Assembly: GCF_900113015.1 (NCBI RefSeq)
Contig: NZ_FONV01000027.1
Span: 1 to 64,000 of the forward strand
DNA: 64,000 nucleotides
Source of the DNA: Actinoplanes philippinensis
GTDB lineage: Bacteria; Actinomycetota; Actinomycetes; Mycobacteriales; Micromonosporaceae
Direction: 5' to 3'
The translations under genes were made by a program, and so were the position numbers. The notes below the pieces were generated by a model, which had not been told where the DNA came from, did no database searches, and saw nothing but the letters and a program-made list of their open reading frames with translations. How positions within the stretch are numbered: the stretch's first letter is position 1; every line of letters starts with the position of its first letter. Shown here in pieces: positions 48,352 to 57,129 of this stretch.

Positions 48352-48503
48352 GTCCACCTGCGGTCACCGAGCCGTGCCCTCGTCGTGCGCCGCCGGAGGC
48401 TCGCGGCACCCATCGCCGGGCGGCGCTCGCCGGGCCGGCTCCCGTCTTGACGACGGTGGGTCTGGTGGCGCGTCGGCCATCCTGTGGTGTTCACCGTAGG
48501 CCG

Positions 48504-48892
48504 GTGATCGCGGCGAGCGGATTCGTTCTGGTCGTCCTCACGGTGGTGGCGATGGCGTTCGAGCGGTCGCCGGTGACGGCGGCGGACTTCACCGCGAACC
48601 GGCCGGGTTTGTGGACGCAGAGCATGCTGTTCCTGGCCGCCGGTGCCATCAGCCTGTGGTATCTGGGTAGCCTGCGCGCCCACCTGATGCGCGCCGAGGG
48701 CGGTTCCGGCCGGTTGTCGAACGTTGCCTTCGGAGCGGGTGTCGCCTGGGCGGTGCTGAACATGGTGGCGCAGGCATTTCAGATCGGTGTGGCCGGCGAC
48801 GCCGCCGGCGAGGCGCTGGTGGCCGTTCTTCCTCATCTGGCTGGTTCCGGCAACCGTGGTCATGGTGAGGCGTGGCGCCGCCTCACCATGAC
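48504..48892 (+). pseudogene. membrane protein gene with internal deletion and frameshift
   Basis: The frame from GTG 48504 encodes two clear helices (SGFVLVVLTVVAMAF, SMLFLAAGAISLWYLGSL) and a third (FGAGVAWAVLNMVAQAFQIGVA). After EAL near 48818 it loses membrane character. A +1 shift gives WPFFLIWLVPATVVMVRRG, a typical last helix and tail, ending at a TGA inside a terminator hairpin. Related proteins that I remember are about 200 residues with extra helices in between, so roughly 60-80 residues also seem missing. It is most likely a decaying gene. Confidence 0.6.
48861..48890. terminator. terminator hairpin
   Basis: CATGGTGAGGCG and CGCCTCACCATG form a 12-bp stem with a 6-nt loop. It covers the shifted-frame stop of the plus-strand pseudogene and lies 14 nt beyond the stop of the minus-strand 29-residue peptide gene, so it can end both. 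Confidence 0.7.
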
Positions 48893-48903
48893 GGCCGGGT
48901 CGG

Positions 48904-48993
48904 TCAGCGACGGACCAGACGGACGATCAGCAGCACCAGGCCGGTCAGGGCGGCGACCCCCAGCAGGGTGGAGCCGACGACGAACGGACCCAT
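48904..48993 (-). CDS. 29-residue single-helix membrane peptide
   Basis: ATG at 48993 follows an excellent ribosome site (GGAAGGAGAGAG). The peptide MGPFVVGSTLLGVAALTGLV plus LLIVRLVRR is one transmembrane helix with a basic end, expected to sit N-out/C-in. Its start is 34 nt after the stop of the lipoprotein gene on the same strand, so it is the last gene of the ABC-transporter unit. The size recalls KdpF-type accessory peptides, but the sequence is not KdpF and no kdp genes are present. It probably stabilises or modulates the ABC permease. Confidence 0.65.
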   Translation of the reverse strand: MGPFVVGSTLLGVAALTGLVLLIVRLVRR

Positions 48994-49026
48994 GTCTCTC
49001 TCCTTCCGCGAATCGGTGGTACCCGG

Positions 49027-50067
49027 TCAGTCGGCGCTGAGCAACTGGCCCGGCAGGGTGAAGGTCTCGGCCTTGCCGGTCTCCGGCGACACCACCGCGG
49101 CGGTGCCGCCGGAGGTCAGCAGCCAGCCCTTGGTGACCTGGTGCAGGCCGGTCGCCCCGTCGATGCCGGTGAGGTCGACGGTTCCGGCCACCTTGCCGTC
49201 GCTGCGGCGCAGGGTCGACACCCGTACGCCCGCCGGTGAGGACACCACCACGGTGAGGGCGTCCTTGGTCGCCGCGATCCGGTCGACCCGGCCGGCGGCG
49301 GTGGTGACCACGTCGGCGCCGTCGACGGTGGTGAGCCGGACCCCTTCGCCGGCGCCCTCGCCGGTCGCCGTGCCGCCGGCCACCGCCACCCGGTCGCCGT
49401 CGCAGGTCAGCGCCTGCACCTGCAGCTGCGCGATCGTGGTGGTGGTCGGGGCCCGGCCGGCGCCCACCGGCACCACCGTCACCTTGCTGCCGGCGCCGTC
49501 GGCCGTCGCCGTGCACAGGTCGTCGGTCCCGCCGGCGGCCAGGCCGGGGTCGGTGGGCAGGGCCACGGCCCGGTCGGACTTCCAGGTCGCCGGGTCGTAC
49601 ATGAGCGCCTCGGCCTTGCCCGCGGTGGAGGCGGCGGCGGTGCTCAGCGCGGCGACGACCGCGCCGACCGGCACCAGCGCCCGCTCGGCCTCCACGGTGC
49701 CGACCCGCTCCAGCGAGTGGCCGCCGGTGTCGATCCGGTAGAGGGCGCTGGGCCTGCCGTCCTTCTTCGGGATGTTGATGATCCATTCGCCGGTGGTGAG
49801 CCGGACGATCTGCGGGCTGCGCACCTCGTCGTCGTCGGACTGGGTGGGCACCACGGCGAGCGGCTTGCCGACGCGGGCCACCGGGTCGACACCGACGACG
49901 GTGGTGAGGTCGTCGACCCGGGACAGCACGAACACCTCGACCCCGGACCAGTCCTTGCTGAGTTCCACCCCGGCCGCTCCGTCACAGCCCGCGAGCAGCA
50001 GGGCGGCGCAGGCGACGGCAGCGGCAGTGCCGCGGCGCAGGACGAACGTACGACGGCTCTTCGTCAT
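49027..50067 (-). CDS. secreted lipoprotein, beta-propeller-like
   Basis: A 346-residue lipoprotein: basic N-terminus, hydrophobic run and lipobox LLAGC (Cys about residue 25). The mature part is a series of short beta-strands with repeating elements (EVFVLSRVDDLTTVVGVD, SALYRIDTGGHSLERVG, GVRVSTLRRSDGKVAGTVD), suggesting a beta-propeller. No catalytic motif. ATG 50067 is chosen since AAGGA lies 9 nt upstream, although ATG 50076, 9 nt further upstream, is also possible. Its start is next to the permease stop, so it may be an extracellular receptor or partner of the ABC transporter. Confidence 0.75.
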   Translation of the reverse strand: MTKSRRTFVLRRGTAAAVACAALLLAGCDGAAGVELSKDWSGVEVFVLSRVDDLTTVVGVDPVARVGKPLAVVPTQSDDDEVRSPQIVRLTTGEWIINIPKKDGRPSALYRIDTGGHSLERVGTVEAERALVPVGAVVAALSTAAASTAGKAEALMYDPATWKSDRAVALPTDPGLAAGGTDDLCTATADGAGSKVTVVPVGAGRAPTTTTIAQLQVQALTCDGDRVAVAGGTATGEGAGEGVRLTTVDGADVVTTAAGRVDRIAATKDALTVVVSSPAGVRVSTLRRSDGKVAGTVDLTGIDGATGLHQVTKGWLLTSGGTAAVVSPETGKAETFTLPGQLLSAD

Positions 50068-50069
50068 GA

Positions 50070-51287
50070 TTACCATTCCTTGATCGCGTCGCTGGGCGCC
50101 AGGCGGGCCGCGCGGAGGGCGGGCAGCAGTGCACCGGCGACGGTGATGAGCACGGTCAGGAGCAGGAGCCCGCCGAAGGTCGTGGTGTCCGGCAGGGGCA
50201 GGGCGTCGGGGACGTACGCCGCCGCCTCGGGCAGGCCGCGCAGGACGGTGACCGCCGCCGCGGCGCCCGCGGCGCCGACCAGGGCGCCGGCGGCTGCGCC
50301 GAGCACGCCGACGACGGCCATCTCGCCGACGAACATGGCCAGCACCGCCGCGCTGCGGAAGCCGACGGCCTTGAGGATGCCGATCTCCCGGATCCGTTGC
50401 CGGGTCAGCGCCCCGGTGACCACGATCGCGCCGACGAGAGCGACCAGGCCGAGGACGGCCAGCAACAACGTTCCGGTGGTACGGATCATGGCGAGCACCC
50501 CGGGCAGCGCGGACAACTCCTGCTGCAACGTCGATCCGACGAAGCCGGCGCTCTGCACCAGCTGCAGGGTGGCGTCGACGTTACGGGCCTCGTCCACGAT
50601 CACGCTGACCTTGTCGTAGCCCACGTTCGCGGTGAACTGTGCCGCGGTGACCCCGGCCCGCGCGGCCGACCACTCCACCACGGTGTCGTTGTCCGCGTAG
50701 GCCGCGTCCGCGCCGTCGACCTGCCAGCCCGGGTCGAAGAGGCCGACCACGGTCACGCCGTCCTGCGCGCCGGTGCCCTGGCCGCTGGAGACGAGGCGGG
50801 TGATGTCGACGGTGATCTTCCGGCCGAGCAGCGTGGAGAGGTCGCTGCCCTGGGAGGTCGCCGGCAGCACCACCTCGCCGGTGCGCAGCGGGAAGAGGTC
50901 CGGCCGGGTCTGCCCGACGATCGGCGGGGTGACCGAGCTGCGCACCGTGGTGGCGTACAGCAGCACGCCCATGACCGTGGCGTCCTTGTAACCGAAGGAG
51001 ACCTGCGCGCGGGGCTCGACGGCCGTGACGTGCGGCAGTCCCTTGAGGGTACGCAGCGCCGCGTCGGTGAGCGGCTGGGCTCCGGGGCGGTCGAAGGCGC
51101 GTTCGACGGTGACGGTGCGGTTGGCGGCGCCCTCCTGCACCCGATCGTGGGCGGCGCGGTCGGCGCTGGCCGAGACGGCGAGAGCCGTGACGCACACCCC
51201 GACGGTGACGGTCAGCAGCGCGGTCAGGCCCACGAAGCGGCGCCACATCGACCGGACGTTCGCCGCGGACAGGGCGAGGATGCTCAT
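50070..51287 (-). CDS. ABC transporter permease, FtsX/MacB type
   Basis: A 405-residue protein: one N-terminal helix (about 19-41), a large extracellular MacB-like periplasmic-core domain (about 45-270), then three helices (about 275-300, 325-350, 370-395) with the coupling sequence RQRIREIGILKAVGFRSAAVLAMFV characteristic of FtsX-family permeases. Such proteins act mechanically on extracytoplasmic substrates or export peptides and lipids rather than importing. It overlaps the ATPase gene by 4 nt. Confidence 0.9.
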   Translation of the reverse strand: MSILALSAANVRSMWRRFVGLTALLTVTVGVCVTALAVSASADRAAHDRVQEGAANRTVTVERAFDRPGAQPLTDAALRTLKGLPHVTAVEPRAQVSFGYKDATVMGVLLYATTVRSSVTPPIVGQTRPDLFPLRTGEVVLPATSQGSDLSTLLGRKITVDITRLVSSGQGTGAQDGVTVVGLFDPGWQVDGADAAYADNDTVVEWSAARAGVTAAQFTANVGYDKVSVIVDEARNVDATLQLVQSAGFVGSTLQQELSALPGVLAMIRTTGTLLLAVLGLVALVGAIVVTGALTRQRIREIGILKAVGFRSAAVLAMFVGEMAVVGVLGAAAGALVGAAGAAAAVTVLRGLPEAAAYVPDALPLPDTTTFGGLLLLTVLITVAGALLPALRAARLAPSDAIKEW

Positions 51288-51994
51288 CGCTGCACCCCCG
51301 CGCCCGAGTCGAGGAGGACGTCGGGCACGGTGACGCCGTCGGACATCCGGATGACGACGTCGGCGGACCGGCAGACGGCCTCACTGTGGGTCACGAGCAG
51401 CACGCCGCGGCCGTCCCGGGCGATCTCCCGGAAGAGCGCGAGGACCGCGGCCTCGCTGTCGGCGTCGAGATTGCCGGTGGGCTCGTCGGCGAGCACCACC
51501 ACGGGGTCGTTGACGAGGGCCCGGGCCACGGCCACCCGCTGCTGCTCGCCGGCGGACAGCTCGCCGGGCCGATGACCGGCCCGCGCGCCGAGCCCGACTC
51601 GCCCGAGCAACTCGTGTGCCCGGCGGGCGGCGTCGCGGCCACCGCCGAGGTGGGGCAGCGCCACGTTCTTGGCCGCGGTGTGCTGGGGGAGCAGGTTGAA
51701 CGCCTGGAAGACGAAGCCGAGCGAGCGGCGGCGCAGGTCGGCGCGCCGGTTGTCGCTCAGCTCGTGCACGTCCCGCCCGCTGATCCGGACCGAACCCCGG
51801 TCGGCCCCCGCCAGCAGGCCGGCGATCTGGAGCAGGGTCGTCTTGCCGGAGCCGGAGCGGCCGACGAGCGCGGTGACCTTGCCGGCGGCCAGGGACAGAT
51901 CCGCTCCGCGCAGCACGTCGATCCGCTCACCGTGCAGGGCGAACGATTTGTGTACGTCGCGCACCTGCAGCGGTGAGTCGGTGTTGGTGTTCAT
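51284..51994 (-). CDS. ABC transporter ATP-binding protein, LolD/MacB type
   Basis: A 236-residue ATPase: Walker A GRSGSGKTT (about 44-52), LGFVFQAFNLLPQHTAAKNVALP (Q-loop), signature LSAGEQQRVAVARAL, Walker B VVVLADEPTGNLD and H-loop VTHS. This subfamily pairs with FtsX/MacB-type permeases, as here. The ATG shares one base with the upstream lipoprotein stop (TGATG), indicating tight coupling. Confidence 0.9.
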   Translation of the reverse strand: MNTNTDSPLQVRDVHKSFALHGERIDVLRGADLSLAAGKVTALVGRSGSGKTTLLQIAGLLAGADRGSVRISGRDVHELSDNRRADLRRRSLGFVFQAFNLLPQHTAAKNVALPHLGGGRDAARRAHELLGRVGLGARAGHRPGELSAGEQQRVAVARALVNDPVVVLADEPTGNLDADSEAAVLALFREIARDGRGVLLVTHSEAVCRSADVVIRMSDGVTVPDVLLDSGAGVQR

Positions 51995-53652
51995 CACTTC
52001 TGCCTCGCTGACGGGGTGGACGGGGCGGGGAGGCGGTTGTCGAGTTGCAGCTCGAGTTTCCAGGCGGCCCACGTGGCTTTCAGGTCGCAGCCGGATCCGG
52101 AGCCGTCGGCCCGGTAGAGACCGGGAAGATCGGCGCACCCCTGCCGCGCGGTGAGCACTTTCGTGACGCTGTTTCGTATTTTTTCGTCCGCGGAACCGCC
52201 CAGAAGGAGGTACGCGCGGACGGTCGTGACGTAGGCGCTGGTCGACGGCAGGCGTCCCGGGTCGGCCACCCACTGCCGCAGCGAGTCGGCGGTGACCCAG
52301 GTGGGGATCTCGCCGCTGTGCCCGTTGTCGGCGAGTCCGGTGACCAGCGTGCCGGCGGCCGTCACACCGGCCGGCGTGTCGAGCGGCCAAGCCGTCGCGT
52401 GTGGCGGGGCGACCGGGATGCCGGCTTCGGCGCACGACAGCGTCGCCCGTGACCACCATTCGGCGTTGTCCGGGGTGACGGCGCCCGGCACCGCACGGTG
52501 ATCGGCACACAGCGTCCGCAGATCCTCGGCGGAATCGGAGTCGCCCGCCAGCCTCCGGGCGGCCGCGATCGGCAGCCGTTCGGCCGGACCCGCCGACGGC
52601 TGGGCGGCCAGCGCGCCCTTCAGCGCCTCGACCTGCCCGGCATCGGTGGTCGCCTCGCCCGCCATGCCGCGCAGCCGCAGGACGAACAGTGTGGCCTCCG
52701 GGCTGCCGCTGAGCGTGTCGGATTCGCGGATCGAGTTGTCCGGCAGCGTCTCCCTGGCGATCCGGGCGCGGACCGGCGCGAGGTCGGCGTCCGGCACGCC
52801 GGCGGCGACCGCGACGACCACCAGGTAATAGAGGTCGTGGAAGCCGAGTGTGCCGGCGTTGTGCTGCAGGACGTTGCCCCAGACCCGCGGGTCCAGCGAC
52901 GCCGTGCCGTGCTGCGCCCGCGCGATGACGGCGGTGCTGTAGGCGTCGAGCAGGGCCTCGTAGCGGGCCCGGTCGTCGAGGCTGCCGAAGTCGGCCGGCG
53001 CGGTCACGGCCGGCGCCGCCGAGGACGGCACGGCAAGACCGAGAATCTGCAGGCCGCGTACGGCGTCCGCGGTGATCCGCAGCGTGCCGGACCCCTCGGC
53101 CACCCGGGTGAGCCAGGCGCCGGCGGTCCGGCGGTCGGTGTCCTCGACGGCGTCGGCTGCGGCCAGCACCTCGAGCGCCGCGACGGTGGCGGCCACGCGG
53201 TAGCCCTCGTCGGCACCCGCGCCGGCTTCGGCGTAGTAGCCGTCGGCGGACTGCATCCGGCGGATCTCGGCGATGTCCTCGTCGTTCAGCAATCCGCCGA
53301 CACCGGCCTCGGCCAGCGGCGCCAGCCACTGACGTCCCCACAGCGGGGAGGCCCCGACGGCCTCGTCCCGGAAGAATCGGGCGGTGTCGTCGGAGACGCT
53401 CAGCTGGGGCGGTTCGGAGTCCAGCAGACGGCGGATCCGCACGGCGTACGAATTGGCTTCCGGCCCGGCGGTCTCATCCCTCAGGAATGGCGGGTAATAC
53501 AACCCGTTCACCGTGCTCACCAGAATGTCGAAGCCCTGGGTCAACGTCTTTTCGGGCGATTCTTCCGGCTCCGTGCAGCCGGCGAGGAGGAGAACCGCCG
53601 ACAGAATGACAAGAAGTCCCGGACGGACACGCCGGGGTGCGCCCGAGCTCAT
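51994..53652 (-). CDS. large lipoprotein with alpha/alpha-toroid-like repeats
   Basis: A 552-residue exported lipoprotein (lipobox LLAGC at about residue 26). The mature protein is almost entirely helical, with repeated elements such as MQSADGYYAEAGAGADEGYRVAATVAALEVLAAADAV and GSPEATLFVLRLRGMAGEA, DSLRQWVADPGRLPSTSAYVTTVRAYLLL, reminiscent of the paired helices of prenyltransferase/terpene-cyclase and complement-like alpha/alpha toroids. The QSADGYY segment matches the QW/Q-x-DG type repeat. There is no DXDD or metal motif, so catalysis is doubtful. It follows the secreted protein gene by 80 bp and is coupled to the ABC genes; I suspect a processing or immunity role at the cell surface. Confidence 0.7.
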   Translation of the reverse strand: MSSGAPRRVRPGLLVILSAVLLLAGCTEPEESPEKTLTQGFDILVSTVNGLYYPPFLRDETAGPEANSYAVRIRRLLDSEPPQLSVSDDTARFFRDEAVGASPLWGRQWLAPLAEAGVGGLLNDEDIAEIRRMQSADGYYAEAGAGADEGYRVAATVAALEVLAAADAVEDTDRRTAGAWLTRVAEGSGTLRITADAVRGLQILGLAVPSSAAPAVTAPADFGSLDDRARYEALLDAYSTAVIARAQHGTASLDPRVWGNVLQHNAGTLGFHDLYYLVVVAVAAGVPDADLAPVRARIARETLPDNSIRESDTLSGSPEATLFVLRLRGMAGEATTDAGQVEALKGALAAQPSAGPAERLPIAAARRLAGDSDSAEDLRTLCADHRAVPGAVTPDNAEWWSRATLSCAEAGIPVAPPHATAWPLDTPAGVTAAGTLVTGLADNGHSGEIPTWVTADSLRQWVADPGRLPSTSAYVTTVRAYLLLGGSADEKIRNSVTKVLTARQGCADLPGLYRADGSGSGCDLKATWAAWKLELQLDNRLPAPSTPSARQK

Positions 53653-53732
53653 CCTGATCACGCTTTTGTCTCTCCCACCGATGAACGGCCACGGCGGAAC
53701 CGGCGGCCCGCCGTGGCCCGTACGGATGATTC

Positions 53733-54230
53733 TTAGAAGGCGCCCGCTTCGACGCACTTCTCAGAAACGGTGATACTGGCGTTGACCTTGCCGGAGCCGC
53801 AGCTGCGCGTGGACACGTAGACGGTGCTGTAGTTCGGCTTCATCTGGCCGCTGTTGTCCGCGATCCACGCCCGGGTGTTGGTCCACTTCACCTCGCCGAG
53901 CGACTTGCTCTTCATGGTCAGGGTGGCTTCCGGGTTCTTCGAGATGGTCAGGCTCGCGCTGACCCCGTGCGCCTGCAGCTCGGCACGGTTGGTGATGGTC
54001 TGCGCGGTGGCCGGGTTGGAGCCGAGCAGCTTCGTCGACGAGGTCCAGTTGCACGCGTTCACATAGGTGCCGCAGTGCCAGGCGTTGACCTGCCACTTGT
54101 CGCCGCCGGCGAGGTTCCAGCTGGCCGAGTCGCTGGTCGCCATGGCCGGACCGGTGAGGCCCAGGCCGATCAATCCCGCCACGGCGCCGACGAACGCCGC
54201 GGCACGGCCGGCGCGTACAGATGTGCGCAT
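53733..54230 (-). CDS. secreted four-cysteine protein, 165 aa
   Basis: A signal peptide (hydrophobic run to GPAMATSDS, cleavage about residue 31) is followed by a mature domain of about 134 residues, Ser/Thr/Asn-rich, with Cys at HCGTYVNACNW and RSCGSGKV...SEKCVEAG (two probable disulfides) and alternating beta-strand pattern. No family is recognised. It is first in a minus-strand unit with ABC transporter genes, so it may be the secreted effector, for example a bacteriocin-like or structural protein, that the system handles. GGAG precedes the ATG. Confidence 0.7.
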   Translation of the reverse strand: MRTSVRAGRAAAFVGAVAGLIGLGLTGPAMATSDSASWNLAGGDKWQVNAWHCGTYVNACNWTSSTKLLGSNPATAQTITNRAELQAHGVSASLTISKNPEATLTMKSKSLGEVKWTNTRAWIADNSGQMKPNYSTVYVSTRSCGSGKVNASITVSEKCVEAGAF

Positions 54231-54257
54231 CAAGTTACTCCACTCACTGATCTCCCC

Positions 54258-54286
54258 CGATATCAAGAAAGGGGGTTGAGATATCG
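54258..54286 (-). promoter_or_regulatory. AT-rich inverted repeat upstream of the secreted-protein operon
   Basis: CGATATC (54258-54264) and GATATCG (54280-54286) flank a centre that extends the pairing as CAA...TTG. Such an AT-rich palindrome is rare in this DNA. It lies 28-56 bp upstream of the ATG of the four-cysteine protein gene, where a repressor or activator would act. Confidence 0.5.
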
Positions 54287-54339
54287 AACGCATCAAGCCA
54301 GAGGGCCCTCGTGGCGGTGCGGGGCAGGACGCTACAGCA

Positions 54340-54771: not shown

Positions 54772-57129
54772 ATGCGCCTGGTTTCCCGTGAGATCGCCCG
54801 TGACATCGCGATCGCCGTCGCCGCTCTGACCGCCGTGGTGCTGCCGGCCACCGGCGCCGCGGCCGCCGACCCCGCGGCGTACTCGCTGAGCTCGGGCAGC
54901 AGCCCCGCGCCGCTCACCGCGGCCGACTGCGCCGCGGACCCGACCTGTGTCGCCGCCCCGGCGCCGCGCGGCGGAACCCTCGACGACCACGCGGCGCTCA
55001 CCCAGGCCATCACCACCGCGGCCGGGCGCACCACCCGGGCGGTCGTCGCCGCCGACGGCACCGTCACCACGCCGGCCACCACCGCCACGGTGCTGCTGTC
55101 AGCCGGTACGTACCGGATCACCCGCGGGCTGAAGCTGCCGCCGAACGTCAACCTGCGCGGCGCCGGGATCGCGGCCACGACGATCCTGATGGACCCGACC
55201 GTGGACTGGCGCAACTTCTCCTACAGCTACCTGGTCCTGCCCAACGGCGTGACCGAGGCGGGCAGCACCAACCTGGTCGCCGACCTGACCGTGAACGGCA
55301 ACTGCCGTACCGGCGCGGGCGCCTTCGACGACGCGACCGCCCCCGGCCGTCCGGGGAAGCCGTGCGACTTCCGCGCGACACTCGGCGCGCACACCAACAC
55401 CGGGGGCGGGATCGCGGCCGGTGACCGCTGGACGGTCCGGCAGGTGCGGTTCACCAACTTCGAGTACTTCAAGCTGTGGGTGAAGGGGACCACCGGCGTA
55501 CGGGTGCTCGACAACCGGTTCGACAACCGGGGCGGCGCCGAGTCCGACGGCGAGGACAACATCGGCGGCGGCGGGCGCAACAGCGACACGGTCATCGAGG
55601 GCAACCGCTTCGACACGACGATCAACGGCAACGCGTTCGACTTCACCAACGCCCGCAACACGACCGTACGGGACAACGTGGTCCTGACCAGCCCGGCGGT
55701 CGCCGCGGCGCGGGGTGTCGGCGAGTACGGCAACATGTACTTCGAGGCCGTCTACGGCGGCACGGTCACCGGCAACCACCTGCAGGGCGCGCACATCGTG
55801 CTGAAGTCGAACTCCGACTACGCCCACTCCGGCGAGAACCGGGACGTCACCGAGCCGCGGGACTTCCTGGTCGCCGGGAACACGATCCGCGACTCGGCGA
55901 CCGTCGGCATCGCCGTGGCCTACGACGACTACCTCGACGGCGACGGCACCGCGGGCACGGCCGGCGGCTGGTCCGACTTCAGCACCAGCACCACCGACCA
56001 CGTGGTACGCCCCGGCGGCGCCAACGTCATCCGCGACAACGTGATCGAGCGCCCGCGCCAGTCCGGCATCCTGGTGTACGGCAGCACCGCCGCCAAGAGC
56101 AGCCCGGACACCGTCACCGGCAACGTGGTGCGCAACGCCGGCTCCGGTGGGTCGACCGCCTACGACACCGGATCGGGCTACTTCGACACCAGCGGCATCG
56201 GCCTGTCGGTCGGCAGCAACGACGTCATCCACAGCAACACGATCACCGACGACCAGGCAGAGCCCACCACCTGGTACGGCGTACACCTCGGCGCCCGCAA
56301 GACGGCCACCCGTCCCGCCAATGTGTCGCTCACCGGCCCCGGCGGCGTCACCAACACGGTCAGCGGCGTCATCGGCGGCGCGGTCCGTACCGTCGCCCAG
56401 GCCCCCGAGGCGCCCGCCGCCGTCACCGCCACCGGCGCGACCCTGACCTGGCCGGAGTCCTACGCGACCACCAACCCGATCGCCGGCTACCGCGTCTACC
56501 GCAACGGCGTCCCGGTCGCGGACCTGCCCGTCGGCAGCGCCACGATCCCCGGCAACCTGCTCGACGCCGACAACGCCGGCCTGGAGTCGGGTACCGCCGG
56601 AACCGCCGGCTGGACGCCGGGATGGTCGGGCACCAAGGTCTCCCGGTACACCGCCGCGGGCGCCGTCGGCGGCTCCTCACTGCAGGTCACCGCGCTCAAG
56701 GACGGCCAGATCAGCACCGCCGGAAGCCCGGTCACGGTGGTCGCCGGCACCTCGTACACCGCGGTGGCGAGCTTCCAGGCCCTCGGCGCCGGACGTCAGG
56801 TGCGGGCCGGGCTCGCCTTCACCGACGCGGCCGGCAAGGTGACCCGGCTCGGCAGCGCCAACATCGCCACCGTGGACGGCACGTCCGGCTGGATGACCAG
56901 CACCTACACCGCCTCCGCTCCGGCCGGTGCGGTCACCGTCCAGCCGTACCTCATGGTGGAGAAGGCCCTGACCGGCGAGTCGCACCTCATCGACCGCATC
57001 GGCCTGACCACCGCGACCGTCACCGAAGGCTGGACCGCGCCCGCCGGCCTCGCCGGCGCCTACCAGATCGTCGCCTACCGCGCCGGCACCGGCGAACTGT
57101 CCGCGGTCACCGAGATCCGCCTCCCCTGA
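54772..57129 (+). CDS. secreted right-handed beta-helix protein with C-terminal Fn3/CBM-like domains
   Basis: A 785-residue exported protein (signal peptide to about residue 32). Residues about 75-540 form a right-handed parallel beta-helix (pectate lyase/Parb1-like repeats: VTGNHLQGAHIVLKSNSDY, FLVAGNTIRDSATVGIAV, NVIRDNVIERPRQSGILVYGS, DVIHSNTITDD). A fibronectin-like stretch follows (PAAVTATGATLTWPESYATTNPIAGYRVYRNGVPVADLP), interrupted by a CBM4/9-like beta-sandwich (NLLDADNAGLESGTAGTAGWTPGW...GESHLIDRIGL). It probably binds or cleaves an acidic polysaccharide outside the cell, consistent with LacI-type control. Confidence 0.85.
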   Translation: MRLVSREIARDIAIAVAALTAVVLPATGAAAADPAAYSLSSGSSPAPLTAADCAADPTCVAAPAPRGGTLDDHAALTQAITTAAGRTTRAVVAADGTVTTPATTATVLLSAGTYRITRGLKLPPNVNLRGAGIAATTILMDPTVDWRNFSYSYLVLPNGVTEAGSTNLVADLTVNGNCRTGAGAFDDATAPGRPGKPCDFRATLGAHTNTGGGIAAGDRWTVRQVRFTNFEYFKLWVKGTTGVRVLDNRFDNRGGAESDGEDNIGGGGRNSDTVIEGNRFDTTINGNAFDFTNARNTTVRDNVVLTSPAVAAARGVGEYGNMYFEAVYGGTVTGNHLQGAHIVLKSNSDYAHSGENRDVTEPRDFLVAGNTIRDSATVGIAVAYDDYLDGDGTAGTAGGWSDFSTSTTDHVVRPGGANVIRDNVIERPRQSGILVYGSTAAKSSPDTVTGNVVRNAGSGGSTAYDTGSGYFDTSGIGLSVGSNDVIHSNTITDDQAEPTTWYGVHLGARKTATRPANVSLTGPGGVTNTVSGVIGGAVRTVAQAPEAPAAVTATGATLTWPESYATTNPIAGYRVYRNGVPVADLPVGSATIPGNLLDADNAGLESGTAGTAGWTPGWSGTKVSRYTAAGAVGGSSLQVTALKDGQISTAGSPVTVVAGTSYTAVASFQALGAGRQVRAGLAFTDAAGKVTRLGSANIATVDGTSGWMTSTYTASAPAGAVTVQPYLMVEKALTGESHLIDRIGLTTATVTEGWTAPAGLAGAYQIVAYRAGTGELSAVTEIRLP

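Follow-up and report, generated by a model that had tools for sequence, protein, structure and literature searches.

In LanI/LanFEG immunity, a lipoprotein and an ABC transporter (NisI and NisFEG) are tied to a secreted antibacterial product, and in the lactococcin 972 system the product is small and of the beta type. Bacteria of the Streptomyces type are known as producers of small-molecule antibiotics, and to our knowledge secreted protein weapons with dedicated immunity have been little described in them. The lcn972 operon consists of one bacteriocin gene and a putative immunity ABC pair (PMC4055356), and YknXYZ, a Gram-positive homologue of MacB, protects against the Sec-exported SDP (PMC5985334). 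The cassette described here lies in a 64,000-nucleotide stretch of DNA from Actinoplanes philippinensis, referred to as the window. By sequence and analogy, it putatively encodes a secreted bacteriocin-like protein together with an ABC-plus-lipoprotein complex for self-protection resembling NisI/NisFEG or YknWXYZ, a reading to which a probability of about 0.45 is given. No description of the cassette was found in the literature searched, the coverage of which was incomplete.

The genes are read from the minus strand in the order sec, anc, ABC ATPase, permease, second lipoprotein and a 29-amino-acid ORF, and an ORF check of the window confirmed the preliminary description of six co-directional genes with overlaps or short gaps, all with unchanged coordinates. 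The gene for the secreted protein, sec (53733..54230, 165 amino acids), is separated by 71 bp (53662..53732) with a GC-rich hairpin, GGCCACGGCGG...CCGCCGTGGCC, from anc (51994..53661), which encodes a helical repeat-like lipoprotein of 555 amino acids. The anc gene overlaps that of the MacB/LolD-type ABC ATPase (51284..51994) in TGATG, the ATPase gene overlaps that of the FtsX/MacB-fold permease (50070..51287) in ATGA, and the permease gene overlaps that of the second, propeller-like lipoprotein (49027..50076); all three overlaps argue for translational coupling. As judged from sequence, the five large genes are one conserved unit. After a further 33 bp follows the 29-amino-acid, one-helix ORF (48904..48993), which has an AAGGAG site 6 nt before its ATG and had initially been counted among the components of the system. 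However, no counterpart follows the propeller-like gene in any of the four other loci that carry this gene (L019, L047, L048 and L050), and relatives gave weak, fragment-like matches only, so that the peptide was rejected as a conserved component and its ORF probably lies outside the module. In the surroundings of the cassette, an inverted repeat just upstream of sec (CGATATC...GATATCG, spacer of ~15 nt, 54242-54300) is a possible operator, and a membrane-protein-like frame just downstream (48480-48895, plus strand) is seemingly broken or truncated and may be a pseudogene remnant. The divergent neighbour gene (54772-57129, plus strand) encodes a secreted protein that, on visual inspection, resembles a beta-helix; some congeners carry homologues of it at unrelated sites, and the window's own genome contains a paralogue.

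The proposed association of sec with the ABC genes holds in other genomes, in that the order sec-anc-ABC-permease is conserved in 16 loci besides the window (L014, L019, L026 and L047-L059; 17 loci with the window) from at least three actinobacterial families. The contig end cuts the ATPase gene in L014, and the assembly of L053 has an interrupted anc frame. In the loci of a second type (L052-L058) anc has diverged too far to be recognised with the first profile, and the gene was identified from its position and from a later alignment; two weak anc matches, L010 and L013 (E near 1e-3), are left out of the homologues. All five genes are present in the window's gene order in G439, from another family of the same order (identities of 62% for sec, 36% for anc, 62% for the ABC ATPase, 44% for the permease and 30% for the propeller-like protein), and in a Dactylosporangium MAG from the window's family (G147), whose sec and anc are 71% and 51% identical, respectively, the contig breaks off early in the ATPase gene that comes next. 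In both cases sec is more conserved than anc, as would be expected if sec is the product. Furthermore, the identity matrices of sec, anc, ATPase and permease correlate across 16 loci (r 0.92-0.99, Mantel p 0.0005), a pattern to which shared ancestry contributes but which leaves little room for swapping of components. The flanking genes of the window-type loci are unrelated, bar three isolated weak similarities, so the edges of the module are sharp, with sec on one side and the permease or propeller-like gene on the other. The gene of the secreted product is thus stably linked to membrane and surface genes, as in the bacteriocin-plus-immunity class. That sec and the ABC genes are merely unrelated chance neighbours would agree with the hairpin, T-tailed in some relatives, that parts sec from the rest, and with L025 and L060, where sec and an anchored protein (in L025 assigned from its position and architecture rather than by a profile match) occur without ABC genes in the stretch read; but this explanation is effectively refuted by an order kept across three or more families at low identity, together with the correlated divergence and the unrelated flanks.

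The distribution of the cassette is sporadic. A clear homologue was found in 2 of 301 genomes of the window's family, the window's own counted, and the cassette in 1 of the 68 genomes of its genus, which suggests horizontal acquisition; an empty-site comparison in the congeners recovered the neighbouring beta-helix-like gene in some of them and no shared flank or synteny. In the genus of G843, sec is present in 14 of 247 genomes. This genus is probably Streptomyces, as judged by G1516, in which sec copies (L060; C1:10326117-10326575) lie 48 kb from either end of the chromosome, an arrangement like that of terminal inverted repeats, with sec and the anchored protein only. Another genome, G1507, carries two divergent cassettes, one of the window-like type (L050) and one of the second type (L057). 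Carriage by plasmids or phages was rejected, since plasmid records yielded no match to any of five sec queries or to the one anc query, phage records none to one sec query, and viral contigs none to a three-sequence sec profile.

A long GC-rich stem is located directly 3' of sec in 10 of the 11 window-type loci (window, L014, L019, L047-L051, L059 and L060, with L026 as the exception). The minimum free energy of the window hairpin was matched by 3 of 200 dinucleotide shuffles, none of 200 folded as well as the hairpins of L014, L019, L049 and L051, and the hairpin of L059 is the weakest (9/200). T-runs follow the stem in L047-L049, as in intrinsic terminators. Between distant loci the stem sequences are unrelated, so that the position is kept and the sequence is not; the second-type loci mostly lack the hairpin, L054 being the one that has it. 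Since a hairpin at this site would reduce read-through and leave the sec mRNA in excess, sec is probably made in excess of the rest or partly separately from it. The single transcript envisaged in the preliminary description therefore needs a qualifier, given this strong hairpin between sec and the other genes and the canonical T-tailed terminator in some relatives.

The sec protein carries an ordinary signal peptide (AMA-TSDSA) and four cysteines (C53, C60, C144 and C159), in agreement with its first description as a four-cysteine secreted protein. The L060 protein lacks C53 and C60 and the L025 protein lacks C144 and C159, an apparently pairwise loss which, in these two cases, suggests disulfides C53-C60 and C144-C159. 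The L025 gene (7414-8340, minus strand) encodes a distant homologue with a Pro/Thr-rich N-terminal extension ahead of the sec domain. An AlphaFold2 model built on 19 sequences (pLDDT 82 overall, mostly >90 in the mature part) predicts an all-beta protein of ten strands with no long helix, and replaced an earlier model from five sequences that was discarded at pLDDT 44. Foldseek found no close PDB fold for the model; the best relatives are remote beta-sandwich, collagen-binding adhesin domains (E 4e-5, TM 0.40-0.46), with pilin beta-sandwich domains also among the structural neighbours, and none of the matches is toxin-specific, the best PDB matches being adhesin-type beta domains with TM <0.5. 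In the homologue alignment sec shows fairly good conservation and not the hypervariability found in many toxins. These neighbours and this conservation, as well as the solved permease structures nearest to that of the cassette (LolC/LolF and YtrF), would suit a non-toxic surface or matrix protein, e.g. an adhesin or a spore or hypha coat, that the ABC pair and the lipoproteins release, place or quality-control at the cell surface, as LolCDE does with lipoproteins. Such a role is considered unlikely, albeit with some weight, because the fold matches, topped by adhesins, are remote and beta sandwiches are common, nothing ties sec to the surface in that it has neither a sortase signal nor a lipobox, and the presence of the cassette is too sporadic for a genus-wide coat component.

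The ABC ATPase and MacB/FtsX permease that had been recognised at the outset were borne out by matches to PF00005 (7.7e-31) and PF02687 (FtsX, 7.7e-15), respectively. By hydropathy, the permease has four transmembrane segments and a large extracytoplasmic domain after the first (about residues 37-260), and its nearest solved structures are LolC, LolF, YtrF and MacB, with MacB and LolC among the solved relatives of the pair. The FtsX-like domain, the four segments with a large ectodomain and the MacB-type ATPase together are those of a MacB/FtsX (type VII) ABC transporter. The FtsX-type fold, the large ectodomain and the extracytoplasmic location of both partner proteins could also fit envelope signalling or remodelling, with the permease as a mechanotransmitter of the FtsEX or BceAB kind, sec acting outside the cell as a ligand or regulator and the anchored proteins serving as receptors; however, domain scans found no hydrolase domain in any member, and no flanking gene is common to the window-type loci, so no dedicated two-component system travels along, which makes this role quite improbable.

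Both lipoproteins have an L-A-G-C lipobox (LLAGC in anc), and homologues of anc have either a lipobox or an N-terminal membrane segment. This supports the lipoprotein part of the earlier characterisation of anc as an all-helical, toroid-like lipoprotein; as for the toroid, the scan of 17 anc homologues gave HEAT_2 matches in two (best 0.0012) and a SQHop_cyclase_N match in one (0.0077), which agree weakly with alpha-alpha repeats, short of proof. Likewise, the second protein is a lipoprotein as described, and its beta-propeller has as its one counterpart a sub-threshold DUF1513 match (0.0018). Including the anc homologues, the domain scans revealed no adaptor domain of the HlyD/MacA/YknX type in anc or in the propeller-like protein. 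Neither Pfam nor NCBIfam has a family that sec, anc or the second lipoprotein matches above cut-off, and PADLOC and PHROGs gave no match whatever for these three; across 19 homologues of sec and 17 of anc, the matches were weak and scattered. The ATPase and permease fall below all listed NCBIfam equivalog or subfamily cut-offs, including LolD, LolCE, FtsE, FtsX and L_ocin_972_ABC. Thus, the system is indeed unrecognised, as had been proposed, in that the four libraries recognise its generic ABC parts only; a role in anti-phage defence was rejected, PADLOC having returned nothing beyond generic matches for the ATPase and a single weak one for the permease.

The bacteriocin reading draws on the conserved order in 17 loci, the unrelated flanks, the correlated divergence, the sporadic presence, the hairpin and the two copies in G1507, and is weakened by the lack of a toxin-specific fold match, of hypervariability, of phage or plasmid records and of a MacA/YknX-type adaptor, and by the two loci without ABC genes. 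According to this reading, sec would be released in larger amounts than the other products, owing to the hairpin after its gene, and would act as a toxin against the envelope of nearby actinomycetes, probably related ones. At the surface of the producer, the anchored protein and the propeller-like lipoprotein would bind sec, while ATP consumed by the ATPase/permease on the cytoplasmic side would power motions of the extracytoplasmic domain by which the bound sec is pushed off the membrane; the whole would work in a manner similar to NisI plus NisFEG with nisin or YknWXYZ with SDP. Somewhat short of an even chance, the cassettes may represent an undescribed class of actinomycete secreted bacteriocins, i.e. 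a disulfide-bonded, all-beta, Sec-exported protein with a MacB-type ABC pair, in which an anchored helical protein and a propeller-like lipoprotein replace the MacA adaptor for self-protection. The cassette is compact and co-inherited, and three of its proteins are in no curated family of the libraries searched, yet in one genus ~6% of the genomes sampled have it. It offers a gene set for asking whether monoderm MacB-type ABC systems can do without a MacA adaptor in protecting against self-made proteins, and should sec prove non-toxic, the cassette still defines a new partnership of a secreted protein and an ABC system.

Among known systems, the lactococcin 972 operon (lcn972-orf2-orf3; TIGR01653, TIGR01654, TIGR03608) has the same layout, with the gene of the secreted protein first and then an ABC pair thought to confer immunity, whereas the cassette has two additional anchored proteins. 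The preliminary description had likewise called the layout analogous and the proteins unlike that family, and the likeness is indeed one of layout only: membership was rejected, since none of the 19 sec homologues matches Lactococcin_972 (Pfam/TIGR01653) at E<=1, TIGR01654 is absent from the permease and anc matches, and the ATPase reaches 173.9 bits against the TIGR03608 cut-off of 254.85. LolCDE/LolDF are the nearest relatives of permease and ATPase among solved structures and in NCBIfam, with scores below the cut-offs for LolD (205.8 against 307.75 bits) and LolCE (36.6 against 362.45 bits), as well as for FtsE (TIGR02673, 183.2 against 264.85 bits) and FtsX (NF038347, 25.4 against 225 bits); the cassette differs from LolCDE in its monoderm host and its linked secreted product. 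With NisI/NisFEG it shares the linkage of a lipoprotein and an ABC transporter to a secreted product, but sec is a 165-amino-acid precursor with no modification enzymes, and the permease is a four-segment MacB-type protein with a large ectodomain rather than of the LanE/G type, with no sequence relation found. YknWXYZ of Bacillus, which provides SDP immunity, and Gram-positive MacAB resemble the cassette in having a separate ATPase and FtsX/MacB-fold permease and an extracytoplasmic peptide or protein substrate. By contrast, no HlyD/MacA-type (MFP) adaptor protein is encoded in the cassette, which has the anchored helical and propeller-like proteins instead and carries the gene of the product within its own operon.
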